NCBI GenBank assembly: GCA_011089965.1
Contig: JAANAU010000003.1
Span: 1 to 64,000, forward strand
From: Magnetococcales bacterium
Lineage (GTDB): Bacteria; Pseudomonadota; Magnetococcia; Magnetococcales; Magnetaquicoccaceae
Length of the DNA: 64,000 bases
Direction of reading: 5' to 3'
A model generated the notes under the pieces. It was not told the origin of the DNA. It made no database searches and saw only the letters and a program-made list of their open reading frames with translations. Positions 3,325 through 50,264 of the stretch are shown here, piece by piece; positions within the stretch are counted from its first letter, which is position 1, and every line of letters begins with the position of its first letter. The position numbers and the translations under genes were made by a program.

Positions 3325-3695
3325 GCCTTCAGGGCGAGGATGGAAACCAGCACGACGTGTTTCCGTTGAATCTGAGCGCCGGGGGGTGCGCTTTCCTCTG
3401 GCCCGAGGAACCGGTGGCCTGGCAGGCGGGAAGTGCGCTGGAATTGACCTTGCACTGGTGCATGGACAGACGCATCCGGATCCCGAGCGCCCTGGCGCGC
3501 ATGGATCGCCGTGCCGCAGGGTTGACCGGCCATGTGGCGTTCTCCCCCTGCGAGCCGAGGGCATTGCGGGAGGTGGAGGCACTGATTCCGGTCATCGAGC
3601 GGAGTCAATTGCAGGCCAGAAGCGACTGGCAACCCCCCACCGGCGCGTATCCCGCCATCCGGTCTGTCCGTTCACGGCCCTGTTTCACATGTTGA
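3321..3695 (+). CDS. PilZ-like domain protein
   Basis: 124 residues from a GTG at 3321, preceded by GGAGGAG about 11 bases upstream. The motif NLSAGGCAFLW at residues 17-27 matches the second PilZ signature (D/N-x-S-x-x-G), and the following beta-rich stretch (SALELTLHWCMDRRIRI, ARMDRRAAGLTGHVAFS) fits the PilZ barrel and its terminal helix. The first signature (RxxxR) is not obvious, so c-di-GMP binding is uncertain. It lies on the mobile element away from any c-di-GMP enzyme. The last 20 residues are low in conservation signs and may be read-through of decayed sequence. Confidence 0.5.
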   Translation: MSLQGEDGNQHDVFPLNLSAGGCAFLWPEEPVAWQAGSALELTLHWCMDRRIRIPSALARMDRRAAGLTGHVAFSPCEPRALREVEALIPVIERSQLQARSDWQPPTGAYPAIRSVRSRPCFTC

Positions 3696-3714
3696 CGACT
3701 GCTCAAGTGTGCCG

Positions 3715-4653
3715 TCAGATCAATAACCAGCAGTATCCATCCCCGTAGCCAATCAACTCCTTCCAATCGGGATGTCTGTGAAACAGCTTGGTAATCTGGG
3801 TGGCATTGGAATCGATGGCCTCCAACACCTCCTGGGTTCTGACCCTGGGTTCTCCGCGTTGCCAGGCGTTGATCAAAGCACCGATCACCTGCTTTTGTTT
3901 GTCACCCCGGAATAGAAAATTTCGCCCACTGACCGTTATGGAGCTGTAATCATTGCTGTAGCGTAACGGCAGCTCCCGTTCTTGAACGGCGGTTCCGGAC
4001 AGCACCCTCGCTATCGCATCCAGGTCGATGCGGACGTGCTCTTCTCCGGGCGGAAAGCAATCATGCAAACGCATCACCCGATGATTGCCTGGAAAACGGG
4101 CATTGCGAATCGTCCAGAGCGAGGTGGTCAGCAGTACGCCCGCTGGTTCTCCGCTACGCTCCTGCAGAGCATCGACCACCTGATCGTACCCACTGGCAAA
4201 TCCAAGACGGCGGGTAAAAAACAGCGCACAACGTCGCTTTCCGATCCAGGGATTACCAAGATGCCACAGACGATCCTGAATCAGCAATTTGGGCGAAAGC
4301 GGCATGGAGAGGCCGAACTGTTCTCCGATCCAACCCATCAACCACTCCAGGTCCAGATCCCAGGTGAGCATGTCTTCCTTCGGCACCGGAACCCAGCCTC
4401 GAGCGTCCGCGCTGAAATAACGAAATCCTCTGGAGGCGGCATCCCATTCCGCCTCCACATAATGGCATTCATGATTGGACCGGTCCGGCACCATGGTCTG
4501 CAGCGGTCCCGGACGCAGCGCTCCGAGACGAATGGCCTCGGCACCCTCCCTGGGGAAATGGTCGCTCATTTTTTCTCCGCCCGTGCGGGGGGTGGCTCCC
4601 TCGCATAGTTCGGCGAGCAACTCCATGGTCATTCTGGAAATCTTCTGTCCCAT
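3715..4653 (-). CDS. hypothetical protein, 312 aa (last gene of XRE-ImmA cargo)
   Basis: It starts seven bases after the stop of the 411-aa gene and is evidently the last gene of that operon. I do not recognise it. Features visible: an N-terminal charged segment; a central region rich in aromatic residues (HYVEAEWDAASRGFRYFSAD, DLEWLMGWIGEQFGL); and a C-terminal part (RGDKQKQVIGALINAWQRG, then EAIDSNATQITKLFHRHPDWK) that resembles a winged helix-turn-helix. No membrane segment and no Walker motif are visible. Inferred: a cytoplasmic partner of the upstream genes, perhaps DNA-binding through its C-terminus. Confidence 0.7.
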   Translation of the reverse strand: MGQKISRMTMELLAELCEGATPRTGGEKMSDHFPREGAEAIRLGALRPGPLQTMVPDRSNHECHYVEAEWDAASRGFRYFSADARGWVPVPKEDMLTWDLDLEWLMGWIGEQFGLSMPLSPKLLIQDRLWHLGNPWIGKRRCALFFTRRLGFASGYDQVVDALQERSGEPAGVLLTTSLWTIRNARFPGNHRVMRLHDCFPPGEEHVRIDLDAIARVLSGTAVQERELPLRYSNDYSSITVSGRNFLFRGDKQKQVIGALINAWQRGEPRVRTQEVLEAIDSNATQITKLFHRHPDWKELIGYGDGYCWLLI

Positions 4654-6737: not shown

Positions 6738-7067
6738 TCAACCGTTGGTCAGATTGCGACGGAAATTGGCGAAGCTCTCCATGATCTGTTCCCGATTGGT
6801 GGCCTGTTCCCGGAGATCGTCCGGGATCTTCCCGGCCAGAACGAACAGATAGCCTTCATCCTCTCCAAGCACCGAGGCAAATTGGCGGATCAGGTGGTCG
6901 GAGGTCGGATTGCGCCGATCATGCTCGATATCGTTCAAATACTGTGGAGAAATGGGACCGCCGTCGTCGTCCTTGTGGATCATGGCGGCCAGATCCTTTT
7001 GATTGATCTTTTTTGATTTCCTGGCCAGAACGATGGCCCGGCCAAATGTGACTGGTTTCTCAGCCAT
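6738..7067 (-). CDS. XRE-family HTH transcriptional regulator
   Basis: 109 residues from the ATG at 7067, with AAGGAA about eight bases upstream; the frame extends to 7193 but lacks a site. The helix-turn-helix runs FGRAIVLARKSKKINQKDLA, then PISPQYLNDIEHDRRNPTSD. The recognition helix and the 'IEHDRRNPT' ending are typical of phage Cro/CI-like XRE repressors. The C-terminal helix (NREQIMESFANFRRN) may dimerise. Being first in the operon with ImmA/IrrE next to it, it probably represses its own promoter in the AT-rich upstream region. Confidence 0.88.
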   Translation of the reverse strand: MAEKPVTFGRAIVLARKSKKINQKDLAAMIHKDDDGGPISPQYLNDIEHDRRNPTSDHLIRQFASVLGEDEGYLFVLAGKIPDDLREQATNREQIMESFANFRRNLTNG

Positions 7068-7346
7068 GAAATTTCCTTTTCGTTGATATACGCATGTTCG
7101 CGGATATGTCAAATCTATTATCACACTCCAAAGCCCGAGGAAAGAAAAAAACAGTGACCTCGTCATGAACAACAGAGAGATCGTTGCGATCATCAGACCG
7201 ATTTACGCTCCAGTTCGCGCCACCATATTTGTTTGCGCTCCTTTTCTATATCTGTTTGTTTTTGTTGTTAATTGATAAATTATGCATCTATCCTCGGTTC
7301 CCGATTACACAATCGAACCGCCGCCTTCAAGGAGACCGAGGAGAAG
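7068..7346. promoter_or_regulatory. divergent AT-rich intergenic region, 279 bp
   Basis: The stretch lies between the leftward XRE operon and the rightward recombinase module and is clearly more AT-rich than its neighbours (around 7090-7300). It must hold the promoters of both. The XRE protein is the likely autoregulator, but I see no unambiguous operator pair. The ribosome site GGAGACCGAGGAG of the next gene lies at its right end. Confidence 0.5.
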
Positions 7347-7553
7347 ATGGTCAGTACCGCCGAACCCACCCGCATGACCCCCGACCAGCGCCTGGATGAA
7401 ATCGCCGGAATCCTCACCTCCGGCATACTGCGACTGCGTCTAAAAAAGGCACAACACATTGAAAAACGAGAATATTTTTCACTTGATAAAGGGAACCGAA
7501 TGGCCCCTTATGGCACTCCCAACCACATTGATATTCAAGGGAAAAAACCATGA
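7347..7553 (+). CDS. small protein of the serine-recombinase module, 68 aa
   Basis: The start reads MVSTAEPTRMTPDQRLDEIAGILTSGILRLRL. The stretch MTPDQRLDEIAGILTSGILRL resembles small proteins found just before DUF2924 and large serine recombinase genes in proteobacterial elements. The C-terminal half (KKAQHIEKREYFSLDKGN) looks less regular and may be altered by decay. GGAGACCGAGGAG precedes the ATG, and the stop overlaps the DUF2924 start by four bases. Confidence 0.6.
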   Translation: MVSTAEPTRMTPDQRLDEIAGILTSGILRLRLKKAQHIEKREYFSLDKGNRMAPYGTPNHIDIQGKKP

Positions 7554-7984
7554 GTACACTATCCCAGATCGCAGCCCTGCCGGGCAGGTCCACCCAGGAG
7601 TTGAACCAATTGTGGCGAAAATTGTTCGAGACCGATCCGCCCCAGGCTGGGAAGGATTATCTGGTGCGTCGCTTGGCCTACCGAGTCCAGGAACTGGCCC
7701 ACGGGGGCCTCTCCCAGGCAGCGACCACCATTCTGGACGGACTGGGACGTGGGACTTCCGATCCGGGCAAGACGCCCGCCAGGACGGAGGGTGCCATACC
7801 GGCTCCAGGTGCTCGGTTGATCCGGGAATGGCAGGGGGTGGAGTACACGGTCACGGTTCTCGATGACGGGTTTGAATATCAGGGCCGCCGGTTCAAAAGC
7901 CTGTCGTCGGTGGCCAAAGCCATCACCGGCACCCACTGGTCGGGTCCGTTGTTCTTCGGACTGCGTAAGGGAGGCAAGGTATGA
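7550..7984 (+). CDS. DUF2924 family protein
   Basis: 144 residues. The N-terminal part LNQLWRKLFETDPPQAGKDY and RRLAYRVQELAHGGLS, and the C-terminal REWQGVEYTVTVLDDGFEYQ, with GRRFKSLSSVAKAITGTHWS and GPLFFGLR, are the hallmarks of DUF2924. These proteins accompany large serine recombinases on integrative elements and prophages; their function is unknown, though the C-terminal part resembles a small DNA-binding fold. Stop and start codons overlap with the recombinase gene (ATGA). Confidence 0.9.
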   Translation: MSTLSQIAALPGRSTQELNQLWRKLFETDPPQAGKDYLVRRLAYRVQELAHGGLSQAATTILDGLGRGTSDPGKTPARTEGAIPAPGARLIREWQGVEYTVTVLDDGFEYQGRRFKSLSSVAKAITGTHWSGPLFFGLRKGGKV

Positions 7985-9342
7985 ACCGCAAAAAGCCAAC
8001 CACCATCGTGACTCCCAAGGTGCGCTGCGCGGTCTACACCCGCAAATCCACCGACGAGGGTCTCGATCAGGAGTTCAACTCCCTGGATTCGCAACGGGAA
8101 GCCTGTCTCGCCTACATCACCAGCCAAAAGGCGGAAGGGTGGATGCCGGTCGCAGACCGTTACGACGATCCCGCCTATTCCGGCGGCACCCTCAATCGCC
8201 CCGCGTTGCAACGATTGATGGGTGACATCGACGCCGGGAAGGTGGACTGCGTGGTGACCTACAAACTGGATCGCTTTTCTCGCTCCCTGGCAGACTTCAC
8301 CCGGTTGATGGAGGTTTTCGAGAAGCGCAGCGTCACCTTTGTCAGTGTCACCCAGTCGTTCAACACCACCACCTCCATGGGTAGGCTGACGCTGAACATT
8401 CTTCTGAGCTTCGCCCAGTTCGAACGGGAGACCACGGCAGACCGGATACGTGACAAATACGCCGCTTCGCGCCAAAAGGGGATCTGGATGGGTGGCATTC
8501 CGCCCCTGGGGTACGATGCCCGCAACCGGGAACTGGTGGTGAATGCGGTGGAAGCCGATCAGGTGCGGCATATCTTCCGCCGCTTTGCCGAATGCGGCTC
8601 ACCCACCCAGGTGGTCAAGAATCTGCGGGCGTCCGGCATCAGCAACAAATCCTGGACCACTGCCGAGGGAATTTGTCGCAAGGGGCAACCCATTCACAAG
8701 GCTGCGCTTTATCGGATTCTCAAGAACCCGGTTTACATCGGCGAGGTGGTCTATCGGGAGGTTTCCTATCCAGGCAAGCACCAGCCCATCGTCGACAGGG
8801 AGCTTTGGGACCGGGTGCATGGCCTGATCGCGGAACACAACCGGCCCAACTCCACCCTCCCACGGGGACAGACGCCGTTCCCCCTGAAAGGGCTGGTGCG
8901 CTGCGGTCATTGCGACGTGGCCATGAAACCCACCCATTCCAGCAAAAATGGTCAGGTCCAATATCGTTACTACATCTGCATCAATGCCGCCCGCACCAGT
9001 CACGATCAGTGCGCCCTGCCCAGCGTGCCAGCGGCGGAACTGGAGCGATTGGTGCTGAACCGGGTGCGCGGTCTGCTCAAATCGCCGGAGGTGGTGGCTC
9101 GCGCCATCCACAAGGTGCGCAAGGCCGACCCGGAGATGGACGAACGGGAGATCGTCGGGTTGCTTTCCTGCCTGGATCCCATCTGGGAGGAACTCTTCCC
9201 CCTCGAGCAGAACCGGCTGCTCAAGCTGCTGGTGGACAAGCTGGTGGTCAGCGCAGGAGGTATCGATTTGCGCCTGCGGGTGGCGGGCCTGGGCGCCCTG
9301 GTGGACGAACTTACTTCAACGCAAGAAAGGAACATGGCATGA
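7981..9342 (+). CDS. large serine recombinase (resolvase/invertase family)
   Basis: 453 residues. The N-terminal catalytic domain has the nucleophile Ser23 in VYTRKS, then SLDSQREACLAYI, YKLDRFSRSLADF and LSFAQFERETTADRIRDK. A recombinase domain follows (PPLGYDARNRELVV to LYRILKNPVYIGEV), then a zinc ribbon (VRCGHCDVAMKP with two later Cys) and a coiled coil near the C-terminus. Such enzymes integrate and excise elements between short att sites without a tyrosine intermediate. It probably mobilises the left 9.8 kb of this window. All motifs are intact. Confidence 0.95.
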   Translation: MNRKKPTTIVTPKVRCAVYTRKSTDEGLDQEFNSLDSQREACLAYITSQKAEGWMPVADRYDDPAYSGGTLNRPALQRLMGDIDAGKVDCVVTYKLDRFSRSLADFTRLMEVFEKRSVTFVSVTQSFNTTTSMGRLTLNILLSFAQFERETTADRIRDKYAASRQKGIWMGGIPPLGYDARNRELVVNAVEADQVRHIFRRFAECGSPTQVVKNLRASGISNKSWTTAEGICRKGQPIHKAALYRILKNPVYIGEVVYREVSYPGKHQPIVDRELWDRVHGLIAEHNRPNSTLPRGQTPFPLKGLVRCGHCDVAMKPTHSSKNGQVQYRYYICINAARTSHDQCALPSVPAAELERLVLNRVRGLLKSPEVVARAIHKVRKADPEMDEREIVGLLSCLDPIWEELFPLEQNRLLKLLVDKLVVSAGGIDLRLRVAGLGALVDELTSTQERNMA

Positions 9343-44846: not shown

Positions 44847-44898
44847 GGTTGTTGGCTCCGTGATTGGTCATGGAACATTGCCATTTTGGGTATGCACG

Positions 44899-45888
44899 TC
44901 ACTCTCTGAACACCTCTTCCAGAGTGCGGGCATCCATATAGTTTAAACTCCATAGCTCAAGAGTTGAAGAGTTGGCTTGTTTGATTTTTTCAGTGGCCCA
45001 CTCTGGCACAGGTCCAAAGCGATGTTGCAGTTGACGAATCAGAATGGAGATTTCTCCTTCCTGCCGTCCTTCCTGCCGTCCTTCCCGTTGTCCCAGCCAT
45101 CGTTCATCCTGGAGTCGTTTCATGAAAAGCTGTTCGATGCGGGGCATGGCGAACAGTTCTTCATCCGGGGTTGTATCCACCAGAAAATCCAGCCACTCCT
45201 TTCCTCCCAGGATGGCGATTTGTTCCGGTGTCACCCCTTCGATGGTGGGATTGTTCAATGAGTTTCTCATCAGCAACCTCCCTAAGCCGAGAATAAGGCG
45301 ACCAAAAGCAATGGAGAATCGATACAGTCCAGCATGTCGGATGGTTTGAAAGGCTTTGTTTCTCTCCTTCTGACGGCTGGCAAAGCATTTCAGCGGGGCA
45401 TTCCAGGATTCATTGGCCAACTCGTTCAGCAGGATGATGCGGATCGTTCCTCCCCATTTCGGGATGCTGTCATACACTCCAGGCGCTCCAACAGGTTTGA
45501 AATCATGTCGTTGGAGAAAGTTTCGTGATGGTGTGATGGAGCTGATGATGACGCTTTGGAGTTGTGTTCTTTTCAGTTTGGAGTGATCCAGAAAAGCCGT
45601 ATCGTAGAGAGACACCCATGTCAGTGTTTTTTCGGTTAAATGTTCTGTGACTTTGATTTCTGCCAGAATGCAATCGACATCCAGATCCCGCAGGCCATCG
45701 GCCATGCGCAGGCGTTGTTCATGGGTTCGGCCATTCGCGTGGCGCTGGAGCAGGATGAGATCTGCCTTGGGTGCCAGAGAGAGGACCGGAATTTCGGTTC
45801 TGACTTCGATGCCAACCGGTTCCAGCAGCTCTTTCAGCGTGGCTCCGATGAGACAGTGCCAGCAGGTCTTGGATTGGGTGTCACTCAA
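44899..45888 (-). CDS. Rpn-like PD-(D/E)XK nuclease with DUF4351 tail
   Basis: 329 residues. The N-terminal domain has the nuclease signature: KADLILLQR (Asp) and DCILAEIKVTEHL (E-x-K). The middle is helical; the C-terminus carries REGRQEGRQEGE repeats and a DUF4351 domain (LIRQLQHRFGPVPEW, LELWSLNYMDARTLEEVFRE). Family members are recombination-promoting nucleases related to PD-(D/E)XK transposase proteins. The RQEG stretch is coded by three 12-bp tandem units (45057-45092). Confidence 0.85.
   Translation of the reverse strand: MSDTQSKTCWHCLIGATLKELLEPVGIEVRTEIPVLSLAPKADLILLQRHANGRTHEQRLRMADGLRDLDVDCILAEIKVTEHLTEKTLTWVSLYDTAFLDHSKLKRTQLQSVIISSITPSRNFLQRHDFKPVGAPGVYDSIPKWGGTIRIILLNELANESWNAPLKCFASRQKERNKAFQTIRHAGLYRFSIAFGRLILGLGRLLMRNSLNNPTIEGVTPEQIAILGGKEWLDFLVDTTPDEELFAMPRIEQLFMKRLQDERWLGQREGRQEGRQEGEISILIRQLQHRFGPVPEWATEKIKQANSSTLELWSLNYMDARTLEEVFRE
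45057..45092 (-). repeat. three 12-bp tandem units inside a nuclease gene
   Basis: CTTCCTGCCGTC occurs twice and then CTTCCCGTTGTC. Because the unit is 12 bp, copy-number change keeps the frame and alters only the RQEG linker length. Confidence 0.8.
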
Positions 45889-46141
45889 CCGATGGGTTCC
45901 GTTTTGCTCCAGTCACGCCATACCACAGGATGAACTGTGCATCATATCCAGCTTCTATCTGAAGGTCAACATACAAGCCGGTGGGTTGGAAGCGGTTATG
46001 CTCTGTACCATGCCAGAACCAGAGATTATGTGGGTTTGGGTCAGCTTGGCATTGGGATCTGACTGTTCTTGGCTGTTGTGAACAGATACAAGCATAATTT
46101 TTTAGTAGATTCTGGCTGACATGGCTGTTATCTATTAAACT
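45889..46141. other. intergenic region, no gene seen
   Basis: 253 bases upstream of the first DUF4351 gene hold its promoter; I see no gene in it. The duplicated element begins at 46142. Confidence 0.4.
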
Positions 46142-46259
46142 GCACCCATTTCGGGATGCGTCGTTTATGTCAAGGGGGTCCAGGGGCAAAGCCTTTGGTG
46201 GGGTTTGGGGCAACGCCCCAACAAAACAAATGACACATTCCAAAATGGTTTTGGTTTAG
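46142..46259 (+). repeat. dispersed intergenic repeat, copy 1 (118 bp)
   Basis: Starts GCACCCATTTCGGGATGCGTC and ends CAAAATGGTTTTGGTTTA. Copy 2 is at 48398-48515, same orientation, with most bases identical. Internally it has hairpin-prone GC blocks (GGGGCAACGCCCC, GGGGCAAAGCCT). It resembles REP/MITE-like intergenic repeats. Confidence 0.8.
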
Positions 46260-46295
46260 TATCTGGACTTTAGAGTTTCAGCATTGTTTGTAAAT

Positions 46296-46467
46296 TTTAA
46301 CTCCCGTCGTGAAACTCATGAAGTCAAAGTCAAAACAAGGCGCTTCGCGCTTTAAGGGAAAAAGCGTAATAAAGTCAAGGATTAGTCCTCAGCAGGCGGG
46401 CGCCCAGGGCGCCGTTGCGAGCACCCGAACCGATGTTGCTGCGATACGCGGAGCGGAGGCTGACTGG
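46296..46467 (-). repeat. DGR-like variable repeat plus downstream flank, copy A
   Basis: 172 bp covering the last 30 codons of the FGE-fold gene and 79 bases after its stop. Copy B is at 49805-49975. Flanks are nearly identical, while codons between about 46399 and 46447 differ heavily in positions 1 and 2. The downstream flank has a GCGC-GAA-GCGC hairpin at 46337-46353. Confidence 0.8.
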
Positions 46468-48291
46468 GTAGTAGTTCCAGCCGCCGCCCCGACCGACCCG
46501 GTGGGAGCCTGATGATGGTCCTTGTGGATCCATCACTGATGTCGATGCGAAAGATCCGTACCAATCTTGAACCCACTCCCACACATTCCCGTGCATGTCA
46601 TACAATCCCCATGGGTTCGGCAGTTTCTGGGCCACGGGACGAGTTCCGCTTGATGCGTTGCTATAGGACCAACCATAGTTCCCAAGATTACTCTCGCTGT
46701 CCCCAAACGAATACGCCGTCGTCGTCCCGGCACGAGCCGCATACTCCCACTCCGCCTCAGTCGGCAAACGATACGTTCCATCATTCCGGGCATTCAACGT
46801 CGTGATGAAAGTCTGAAGATCATCCCAGGAGACTTGTTCAACCGGGCAGTTGTCCCCGCAACTCGAAAAATACGATGGACTGTTCCCCATCACCGCTCGC
46901 CACTGACCCTGCGTGATCTCCGTCGTTTGCATGTAAAAGGCACGGCTGATCGTCACCTGATGTTGTGGAGTCGCTTGGCTGTACCATGAATTTGCACTGA
47001 CATCACTGGCAGAAGCTCCCATCGTAAACATTCCAGCCGGGATCAACTTGAAGGTCATCCCCAAGCTGTTGGTTACCTCCGGCGCCGGTCCTTCCCGAAT
47101 GGTTACCGTGATCATGGCCACGTTGGAATCACCCGTGCCGTCGTTGGCCTTGAAGGTGAAGGTGTCCGCACCTGTAGTCCCGGAGTTCGGGGTATAACGG
47201 TACTCTCCGGTCGTAGCATTGGTGATGGTGGCACTCCCCTTGCTACCATTGGCAACGATGAAATAGGCCAATTGGTCACTATCCGCATCCGTCGCACGCA
47301 ATATTCCGGTCCCGGCGGTGTTCTGGGAGACGGTCAGGGTATCGGAAGTGGCCACCGGGTCATGATTGTTCCTCAGAAAGGTCACGGTCACCGTGGCCAG
47401 GTTGGAATCGACACGGCCATCGTTCGCCCGGAAAGTGAAAGTGTCTGTTCCGGTGGCGCCACTGTTCGGCGTATAGGTGAATGCACCGGTGGAGGCGTTC
47501 AGATTCACTTGCCCTTTCGTCGCATTGCCCACAATCCGGTATGTCAAAGGATTCCGATCCGAGTCAGTGGCCGTCAGGGTGTCGGTGATGGCTTGACCCG
47601 GTGTGACGCTCAATGAATCGTTCGCTGCCACCGGTGCCCGGTTGGTGAAGGCGATCACAAAACTGTCGCTCACCGACCCGCCACGTCCATCGCTCGCCGT
47701 CACCCGGATAGTCAGTGTGCTGGCATAGGCCGGGGGTGTGCCGGAAAAAGTCCGGGTGCTCGACGAAAAACGCAGCCAGCTCGGCAAGGTCGAACCATTG
47801 GCCTGACGCGCCGTGTAGGTCAGACGGTCGGAGTCCCGATCCCGGAAGGTGGTCGAGGAGAATTGGAATGACTGGGCGCTGCCACGCCTCCAGCTCTTGT
47901 CCGTGATCGCCTCGCGCACGGTTGGCGTGTCGTTGACGTCCACCAGATTCAACCCGAAGGCGCACACAGCCGTTCCGTTGTTGCCGTCATTCGCCCTCAC
48001 CCGCAATGTCAACTTGGATGTGCCCGCCGGAGGATTGCCGGAAAAGGTCCGCGTGGCCCCGTTGAAACTCAACCAGGAGGGCAGCGCCGTGCCGTCCGCC
48101 TGTTGGGCCGTGTAGGTCAGATCATCCCAGTCGGTATCCCGAAAGGTGATGGACGAAAACTGAAAACTCTTGCTCCCTCTGCCCGTCCACGTCTGATCCG
48201 GAATTGGCGTGAAACAGACTGGTGCCGCCGCCTCCGCCACCCGCCACGGCAGCAACACCAGAGAGAACAAACCCAATGTGGTTTTTTTCAT
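46375..48291 (-). CDS. secreted cadherin-like/FGE-fold protein, probable DGR target
   Basis: 638 residues from ATG 48291 (GGAGAC upstream), with signal peptide TTLGLFSLVLLPWRVAEAA. Two dystroglycan-type cadherin-like repeats (each with DDLTYTAQQADG- or DRLTYTARQANG-like strand, then PSWLSFNGATRTFSG) are followed by two cadherin-like domains (APVAANDSLSV, DPVATSDTLTV; both with TDTFTFRANDG-like ends). From about residue 420 comes a formylglycine-generating-enzyme fold: KLIPAGMFTMGAS, QTTEITQGQWRAVMGNSPSY, PVEQVSWDDLQTF, RLPTEAEWEYAARAG, and GLYDMHGNVWEWVQD. The last 33 residues (from YPVSLRSAYRSN to ARLLRTNP) lie in the duplicated variable block. It is probably a surface-displayed binding protein rather than an FGE enzyme. 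Confidence 0.85.
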   Translation of the reverse strand: MKKTTLGLFSLVLLPWRVAEAAAPVCFTPIPDQTWTGRGSKSFQFSSITFRDTDWDDLTYTAQQADGTALPSWLSFNGATRTFSGNPPAGTSKLTLRVRANDGNNGTAVCAFGLNLVDVNDTPTVREAITDKSWRRGSAQSFQFSSTTFRDRDSDRLTYTARQANGSTLPSWLRFSSSTRTFSGTPPAYASTLTIRVTASDGRGGSVSDSFVIAFTNRAPVAANDSLSVTPGQAITDTLTATDSDRNPLTYRIVGNATKGQVNLNASTGAFTYTPNSGATGTDTFTFRANDGRVDSNLATVTVTFLRNNHDPVATSDTLTVSQNTAGTGILRATDADSDQLAYFIVANGSKGSATITNATTGEYRYTPNSGTTGADTFTFKANDGTGDSNVAMITVTIREGPAPEVTNSLGMTFKLIPAGMFTMGASASDVSANSWYSQATPQHQVTISRAFYMQTTEITQGQWRAVMGNSPSYFSSCGDNCPVEQVSWDDLQTFITTLNARNDGTYRLPTEAEWEYAARAGTTTAYSFGDSESNLGNYGWSYSNASSGTRPVAQKLPNPWGLYDMHGNVWEWVQDWYGSFASTSVMDPQGPSSGSHRVGRGGGWNYYPVSLRSAYRSNIGSGARNGALGARLLRTNP

Positions 48292-48745
48292 GCCCAAGTC
48301 TCCATAATCAAAGTCAGGGTGACATCGCAATACGTTCTCAATCCATTATACTACACCTCATCCTGAAAAATCATCTTTTTTCGCAACGATTGGTATCGCA
48401 CCCATGACGGGATGCGTCGTTTATATCAAACGGATCCAGGGCAACGCCCTTGGTAGGGTTTGGGGCGAGAGCCACCCAAGAAAAAAATGACATATTCCAA
48501 ACTGGTTTTGGTTTAAGAACAGTCGGATCGGCACTGGGCTTCGACTGTTCTAACCGCCCTTGACCGATGCTGAAAGAGGCTGTAAACCAGCACAATGAAC
48601 GCTAACGAAACCATCAATTGAGCGGACTCCTGCCATGGCGGCAGGACTGACAAATCATCGGTGGACGATGAAGGAGCTGTTGGAGTATAAAACCTCTCCA
48701 AAGTTCAAAACTTATATCGTCCATGGTTGGATGTGGTGCTACCCC
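48292..48745. other. intergenic region with dispersed repeat copy 2
   Basis: 454 bases between the FGE-fold gene and the second DUF4351 gene, holding the FGE promoter, repeat copy 2 (48398-48515) and a stretch from 48516 with no supported gene. Confidence 0.5.
48398..48515 (+). repeat. dispersed intergenic repeat, copy 2 (118 bp)
   Basis: Begins GCACCCATGACGGGATGCGTC and ends CAAACTGGTTTTGGTTTA. Together with copy 1 it brackets the FGE-fold gene in direct orientation. Confidence 0.8.
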
Positions 48746-49720
48746 TCACTCTGCGAAGACCTCATCGAGTGAAGTTGCGTCCACGAATCTGAGACTCCAT
48801 TCCTCCAGCTCGGAGGATTTGGCCTTGGTGATCTTTTCGTTGGCCCAGTCTGGGAGTGAGCCGAAACGGCGTTGGAGTTGGCGGGTCAAAATGATTGCTT
48901 CGCCTTCCTGGCGTCCATCCTGGCGGCCTTTTTTCTCACCGATTTGGATGCCTTCCTCAATCCCTTCCTTTTTACCCTCTATTTTCCCTGCCTTCCAGGT
49001 GTTCTCCACCATGCTGGCCTGGGAACGAAGATCTTCCTGGTACTGCTCGTAGGCCTGACGTTCGGCATCAGAGAGTTGCAGGATATCCAATACCTTTTTG
49101 GCTTTTTCCAGACCACGGGCAGTGAAATCGTCTCGTATTTCTCCTTTCTTTAAAAAATAAATCCACTCGTCCAGAGTGTCTGTCGCGACTTCATTGAACC
49201 GTTTTACCATGATGAGGTAAATCGCTGGAAATATCTCCTGAACTGTCTTTCTGTGAAACATTTCTTTTTGAACATCATTTAAGATTAACTCGTCTTTGGT
49301 GTGCATACCTCTGAATGATGTCTCACCAAGATAGACATAATCTTTACCTTCTCCAATATCAAAGTAGAAGATATTGATTGAGATTACCTTTGGTATTTTG
49401 GTGTAAGATTCTCCTTCATCTACATGCTCGGTGATGGTCTTGGCGATACCAAAAAGCAGCCGTTGAAGATAATCAAACTCCCGCTCGTATTGCAGCTCGA
49501 TCAGGATTAGCTCACCCTCGCTGTTCTTGACCTTCATATCCACGCGGTTGAACTTGTCTTTGGCATCCTCCTTGTTGCTCTCACTCTCCAGGATCTCGAC
49601 GATGCGGATGTCGGTGGTGAGCAGTTCACTCAGAAAGCCCTCCAGCACCTCGAAATTGGCCTTGCTGCGCAAAAGCCGTTTCAGGGCCCAGTCGAAGGTG
49701 ATGAGACGACGTTTGCTCAT
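48746..49720 (-). CDS. Rpn family recombination-promoting nuclease (PDDEXK_2) with DUF4351
   Basis: 324 residues from ATG 49720 (GGAGATGC upstream). The N-terminal MSKRRLITFDWALKRLLRSK and the catalytic NRVDMKVKNSEGELILIELQ (Asp with E-x-Q) match PDDEXK_2; QYEREFDYLQRLLFG and FRGMHTKDELIL follow. The C-terminus has a charged linker (KEGIEEGIQIGEKKGRQDG) and DUF4351 (LTRQLQRRFGSLPDWANEKI). It resembles the gene at 44899-45888 in its tail but belongs to a different nuclease subgroup. Confidence 0.92.
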   Translation of the reverse strand: MSKRRLITFDWALKRLLRSKANFEVLEGFLSELLTTDIRIVEILESESNKEDAKDKFNRVDMKVKNSEGELILIELQYEREFDYLQRLLFGIAKTITEHVDEGESYTKIPKVISINIFYFDIGEGKDYVYLGETSFRGMHTKDELILNDVQKEMFHRKTVQEIFPAIYLIMVKRFNEVATDTLDEWIYFLKKGEIRDDFTARGLEKAKKVLDILQLSDAERQAYEQYQEDLRSQASMVENTWKAGKIEGKKEGIEEGIQIGEKKGRQDGRQEGEAIILTRQLQRRFGSLPDWANEKITKAKSSELEEWSLRFVDATSLDEVFAE

Positions 49721-50264
49721 ATTGCATCTCCAGATTTCAAAGTCGGTCGGCTTTTGGCGGTCCCGCTTCGCTTGGGACCGCCTTTCGCCTCCCTCATAGA
49801 ACACTTTAACTCCCGTCGTGAAACTCATGAAGTCAAAGTCAAAACAAGGCGCTTCGCGCTTTAAGGGAAAGACGTAATAAAGTTAAGGATTTGTCCTCAG
49901 CAGGCGGGCACCCGGGTCGCAGCTGCGAAAACCCGAATCGTCGTAGCCGCGAAGCGCGGAGCGGAGGCTGACTGGATCGATGTGTTCATGTCGCATTCCT
50001 CCCATGCAAGCTGTGTTGAGCAGTTTCGTCGGTAGTGTAGCCACATGAATTACGATAATCAACCAAATTCGACCCGTCCACGTTCAAGTGCGGTGGTACC
50101 CTGTACAGGATTTCAAGGAGTTGCATGGTCTCCTTGCCGGAGATGCCGGACACCTCACCACCTTGTATTGACTTTGAGAGCGGGCTGGGCATAAAATTGG
50201 GGATTGATCCAAGGGATGCTTGGACCAGGGATGGGAATTTCAAACGCTTTCTAAGGATGGTCGC
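49721..50264. other. intergenic region with variable-repeat copy B and carA leader
   Basis: 544 bases. The left part holds repeat copy B (49805-49975); the right part holds the carA promoter. A small hairpin (CCAAG-GGATG-CTTGG near 50210-50225) lies before carA. I see no clear PyrR-type attenuator. Confidence 0.5.
49805..49975 (-). repeat. DGR-like variable repeat plus downstream flank, copy B
   Basis: 171 bp, read leftward: PVSLRSALRGYDDSGFRSCD then PGARLLRTNP and stop, followed by the same downstream flank and hairpin (49846-49862) as copy A. The rest of an FGE gene is missing, so it is a gene 3'-end fragment, not an expressed gene as it stands. Confidence 0.8.

Follow-up and report, generated by a model that had tools for sequence, protein, structure and literature searches.

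The prototype diversity-generating retroelement (DGR) is that of Bordetella phage BPP-1, a phage cassette in which all parts lie together. In BPP-1 a variable repeat (VR) differs from a template repeat (TR) specifically at adenines, and a hairpin with an 8-bp stem and a 4-nt loop lies downstream of the VR. The sequence upstream of the VR is dispensable for a BPP-1 target, the downstream hairpin is required, and truncated VRs still take up cDNA, at cryptic 5' sites (PMC3240598). Among phage DGRs the hairpin is found 4–34 bp after the VR and has a stem of 7–10 bp (PMC3240598). VRs that have no reverse transcriptase (RT) but show adenine-directed change are also known, and two reports read them as fossils or as sites that are served in trans (PMC4372165, PMC10907252). 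These reports concern RT-less nanoarchaeal DGR fragments, whose hairpins have trinucleotide G-R-A loops (PMC4372165), and incomplete or remote DGR loci in Thiohalocapsa PB-PSB1 (PMC10907252). Remote targets would escape detection in at least one DGR survey, as the survey itself states (PMC8144416). Judging by title or abstract, full-text searches of a literature library gave no earlier report of a DGR in Magnetococcales or magnetotactic bacteria.

Here we describe two VRs from a Magnetococcales bacterium that, like the nanoarchaeal and Thiohalocapsa cases, come without an RT. They lie in a window of 64,000 nucleotides, the whole stretch of DNA that was analyzed, which is part of contig C56 of an assembly of 3.66 Mb (80 contigs, 98.9% complete). 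We believe, with a probability of roughly 90%, that both are orphaned recipient sites of an FGE-type DGR that is found complete in other Magnetococcales, and that each was rewritten separately. The pair differs from the two published cases in host and in target protein, and the text of those reports available to us notes no gene-less copy of a VR 3' end.

Copy A (46378–46467, minus strand) reads PVSLRSAYRSNIGSGARNGALGARLLRTNP and copy B (49886–49975, minus strand) reads PVSLRSALRGYDDSGFRSCDPGARLLRTNP. The coordinates and translations given for both copies in the original prediction were correct when we re-read the sequence, and a recount of the base differences in the core again came to 14. 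Thirteen of them are at codon positions 1 or 2 and every one of these changes an amino acid; the remaining one is synonymous (GGC/GGT). All 14 fall in an 80-nt VR overlap, and an additional third-position difference (ACT/ACA) lies just beyond the core. The scarcity of third-position changes had been used as an argument for a DGR; taken alone it is the weaker evidence (P = 0.02). The repeat is real as well, but it had been drawn too short: about 90 nt of downstream flank are also repeated, and the direct repeat (46296–46467 vs. 49805–49975) is 172 nt long and 90% identical. Over the 92 nt that lie 3' of the VR, A and B differ by only about three to four substitutions and one deletion. Because of these few differences, we regard A and B as recent duplicates whose template-adenine sites have diverged strongly (11 of the 19 invariant template-adenine sites differ).

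The gene that contains VR-A (46375–48291, minus strand) encodes He_PIG and Big_9 (cadherin-like) domains followed by a C-terminal FGE-sulfatase domain (PF03781, E 2.9e-44; PF17963; PF05345). Its open reading frame is listed from a TTG at 48330, the first ATG is at 48291, and by eye the predicted N-terminal sequence resembles a signal peptide. VR-A forms the C-terminal end of the PF03781 domain, and thus sits in a C-type-lectin-like domain. A gapless alignment to the FGE-type TRs of relatives places it at about 46388–46509 (minus strand), so that it reaches farther upstream than the copy A of the original prediction. VR-B (49896–49975, minus strand) is truncated at its 5' end: it begins inside the VR and spans just the 3' two-thirds of it. 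Upstream of the CCAGTC at copy B, that is upstream of 49975, we found no FGE homology, only an open frame of about 70 codons with a possible ORF of about 38 codons. Hence, copy B is not a second target gene but a truncated site without a gene. The FGE-sulfatase family has 24 matches in this genome, and several of the genes concerned have He_PIG/Big_9 repeats at their N-termini. A dispersed intergenic repeat (GCACCCATTTCGGGATGCGTCGTTTATGTCAAGGGGGTCCAGGG...) flanks both ends of the FGE gene (46142–46258 and 48398–48515) and occurs again on contig C6.

A DNA search with the end of VR-A across 61 genomes found FGE VRs in several genera. In one relative (G012, contig C103), an AAC/AAT-rich copy that starts at base 339, GSNRVNRGGSWNNNPVNLRSANRNNNDPGNRNNNIGARLLS, is a template repeat, with genes for HRDC and Avd behind it. 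FGE target VR, HRDC, Avd, RT and AAY-rich TR occur all together in G008, which belongs to the same genus, and in G018 and G030; G003, also of the same genus, has the RT and the TR. A TR is therefore present in five relatives. Within a genome, TR and VR differ at 22 adenines and no other base in G008, at 17 adenines and one other base in G018, and at 20 adenines and one other base in G030. The Avd of the relatives matches PF22296 (bAvd), and for the FGE-type RT of G008 the nearest structure is 8ub7 (E 6.9e-53). This structure is listed as "Reverse transcriptase", and we take it to be the DGR RT of a Bordetella phage. An FGE/HRDC/Avd-type DGR thus exists in Magnetococcales. It resembles BPP-1 in the adenine-specific change from TR to VR, in a putative hairpin downstream of the VR and in RT homology, and differs from it by the HRDC gene. 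The cassettes of the relatives are like A and B in the VR frame, the AGGAC terminus, the downstream block and the kind of target, an FGE domain. The difference is that HRDC, Avd, RT and TR occur there in varied combinations, in three genomes all beside the target, whereas here the recipient sites stand alone and, in contrast to BPP-1, without machinery.

Adenine specificity could be measured only against the templates of relatives, because our own assembly lacks a TR, an FGE-type RT and genes for Avd and HRDC. Compared with the closest template, that of G012, VR-A is changed at 18 of 32 adenines and at 5 of 90 other bases (Fisher 5.3e-9), and VR-B at 14 of 21 adenines and 7 of 59 other bases (Fisher 4.2e-6). 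Weaker, though still significant, values come from the other three templates, which are more distant. Adenine-templated diversification had been proposed for the pair without a template at hand, and the templates of the relatives bear this out. Of the 14 positions that differ between the copies, 12 are an adenine in these templates: 11 in all four, and one more in three of the four. By chance, 11 of 14 differences would fall on the 19 invariant template adenines with P = 1.9e-6, and 12 of 14 on sites with an A in any template with P = 1.5e-6. The two differences off the template adenines are CTG/CCG and the synonymous GGC/GGT (VR bases 104 and 108). Either at least one copy has drifted since its last rewriting, or both bases fall in a 3' segment that does not get transferred.

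Both copies also carry a DGR recipient block. AGGAC ends A, B and the FGE VRs of the relatives, and AGTAC ends all TRs, which is the distinction between IMH and IMH*; judging from its position, AGGAC is probably the functional IMH. After VR-A, the recipient block (46334–46389, minus strand) consists of the AGGAC terminus, a conserved T-rich segment (CCTT..TTACGCTTTTTCCCTT) and a hairpin, GCGC-GAA-GCGC (46340–46350, minus strand). Sequence and alignment place the block after VR-B at 49843–49897 (minus strand), with a T-rich segment that is one base shorter and the same hairpin (49849–49859, minus strand). The T-rich block (consensus CCTTAACCCTTTTACGCTTTTTCCCTTG) follows A, B and the VRs of eight other Magnetococcales genomes from four families, and it is absent behind the templates of the relatives. 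A hairpin of the form GCGC-GNA-GCGC comes after the T-rich block in A and B and is clear in five of the eight genomes (G007, G008, G014, G018 and G042). It starts about 33 nt past AGGAC, within the range of phage DGRs, but its stem, of 4 bp with flanking pairs, does not reach the length seen in phage DGRs (PMC3240598), BPP-1 included. Its GAA loop has 3 nt, as do the loops in nanoarchaeal DGRs (PMC4372165), compared with 4 nt in BPP-1. In the hairpin alignment 83% of cells are paired, yet covariation is not above that of shuffles; since the base-pair test did not exceed shuffles, the hairpin could alternatively be a transcription terminator. Another gene-poor VR remnant lies on contig C26 of a genome of the same genus (G007, locus L084, about 3620–4350), where an FGE gene that has decayed and lost an internal segment has kept its VR end and recipient block.

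One could also argue that A and B are ordinary FGE paralogues, in which a variable C-terminal loop has changed through positive selection or recombination between genes, without any DGR. The 24 family matches in the genome would fit this view, and so would two further FGE ends (C21:3389–3513 and C49:12894–12966) that resemble a VR and have no DGR terminus. However, B lies outside any FGE gene, so selection at the protein level cannot now act on it, the changes between A and B are concentrated at template adenines (P 2e-6), and each copy has a DGR recipient block. We therefore give the paralogue explanation very little probability. The ends on C21 and C49 have neither the AGGAC terminus nor a recipient block, and they differ from the templates of the relatives mostly at adenines but at many other bases too. 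For these reasons we did not count them as DGR sites; they are possibly older, dead DGR targets.

The original prediction called for a genome-wide search for a template with an RT and Avd, and would have taken a complete genome with neither an RT nor a template as a refutation. This search had a mixed outcome. Our assembly, at 98.9% completeness yet split into 80 contigs, has no RT, Avd or template of the FGE type, whereas relatives do have the template. Queries with the A sequence and with a synthetic AAC/AAT template found no FGE-type template, nor did a degenerate template pattern match anywhere in the assembly with up to three mismatches. AAC-rich matches on C51 and C16 were rejected as templates, being simple AAC runs inside unrelated frames. 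The assembly yielded no FGE-type DGR RT and, at E<=1e-5, no HRDC accessory gene, in searches that recovered the cassettes of the relatives; the Avd query, run on this assembly alone and hence with no positive control, found nothing at E<=1. Since TR, RT and accessory protein of this type are not found in its genome, A and B represent two DGR recipient sites rather than a DGR.

Most likely, A and B are recent relicts that were left after the machinery was lost. The FGE-type cassette might instead be present and active but missing from the 80 contigs, with A, and perhaps B, as current remote targets in trans. This is a variant of our main reading and takes its share of the probability given above; we consider it possible, though less probable than loss. 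The cassettes of the relatives often lie on tiny contigs (3.5, 4.1, 5.9 and 7.3 kb), as expected where strain-level variation breaks assemblies, A and B retain termini and hairpins, and remote targets that are diversified in trans are documented (PMC10907252). Yet every one of TR, RT, Avd and HRDC is absent from an assembly that is nearly complete, and A and B disagree at VR bases 104 and 108, where there is no template adenine; hence the two cannot both have been copied recently and in full length from one template. It is because of these two off-adenine differences and the absence of all four parts of the machinery that we favor relicts over an unassembled cassette.

That the window holds no RT, as first noted, is correct, but the genome does hold a DGR RT, which belongs to a different, Lcl_C/DUF1566 type of DGR. 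An RVT_1 search of the genome turned up two types of RT, each encoded on contig C6. One belongs to a group II intron; the other is a DGR RT (7047–8579; DGR motif IGNLTSQ, of the form IGxxxSQ; best solved relative 8ub7, E 1.4e-42; phrog_1423, E 4e-103) that is flanked by two Lcl_C (DUF1566) genes. As a real DGR RT, and the only one found in the genome, it might have rewritten A in trans, or might still do so. However, in G021 and G042 the orthologous RTs are accompanied by TR/VR pairs that serve Lcl_C targets and differ almost exclusively at adenines, so an FGE-type VR is not what the C6 system would be expected to rewrite. FGE-type repeats were not found beside these orthologues. The FGE-type RT of the relatives belongs to a different lineage (37–40% identity). 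Moreover, no template was found on C6, where a VR-like target end occupies the template slot. All of this makes a role of the C6 enzyme highly improbable. At this locus (L008, C6 5788–9181) the slot comes just before the RT, and the VR-like gene end in it has a template-type GGAGAATG terminus. The same arrangement is seen in G029 (L060); it looks as if recombination between VR and TR had disabled the system.

If A and B are orphaned recipient sites, an AAY-rich template, reverse-transcribed mutagenically with the help of Avd and the HRDC protein, would have served to rewrite the two copies separately by retrohoming in this lineage, so that the FGE-domain protein would have displayed a changing C-terminal surface. 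B would be a duplicated 3' part of a VR with its hairpin, whose gene was lost or never present. By analogy with the Bordetella phage, in which sequence upstream of the VR is dispensable and whose minimal target B resembles, B could still be open to rewriting. Copy B offers a natural experiment on the rule from BPP-1 that a target needs only the 3' part of a VR and the downstream hairpin, but no gene. It is very unlikely that VR-B serves as a silent, gene-less cassette in which variants gather through retrohoming and from which they pass to VR-A by recombination in the 172-nt repeat; if it did, it would be a stored repertoire apart from the expressed gene. More generally, target sites can outlive, or be distant from, the machinery that wrote them, and the templates of relatives can expose orphan VRs that are overlooked by DGR surveys centered on the RT.

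Both VRs lie in an island of about 5 kb (44850–50160, ends approximate) between a PDZ-domain gene and carA. In eight genomes of the same genus these two genes are directly adjacent and the island is absent. Upstream of carA, homology to the relatives starts near 50158 at the earliest, and VR-B sits at the carA end of the island. Between the two VRs there is a gene for an Rpn-family PD-(D/E)XK recombination-promoting nuclease (48746–49717, minus strand; PF12784, E 2e-25; TIGR01784 above cut-off). A second nuclease-like ORF (44899–45888, minus strand), on the left of the island, is probably also of Rpn type, going by sequence resemblance. Rpn-type nuclease genes recur beside DGR target genes in several Magnetococcales genomes (also at loci L084, L087 and L058), which may simply reflect their abundance.
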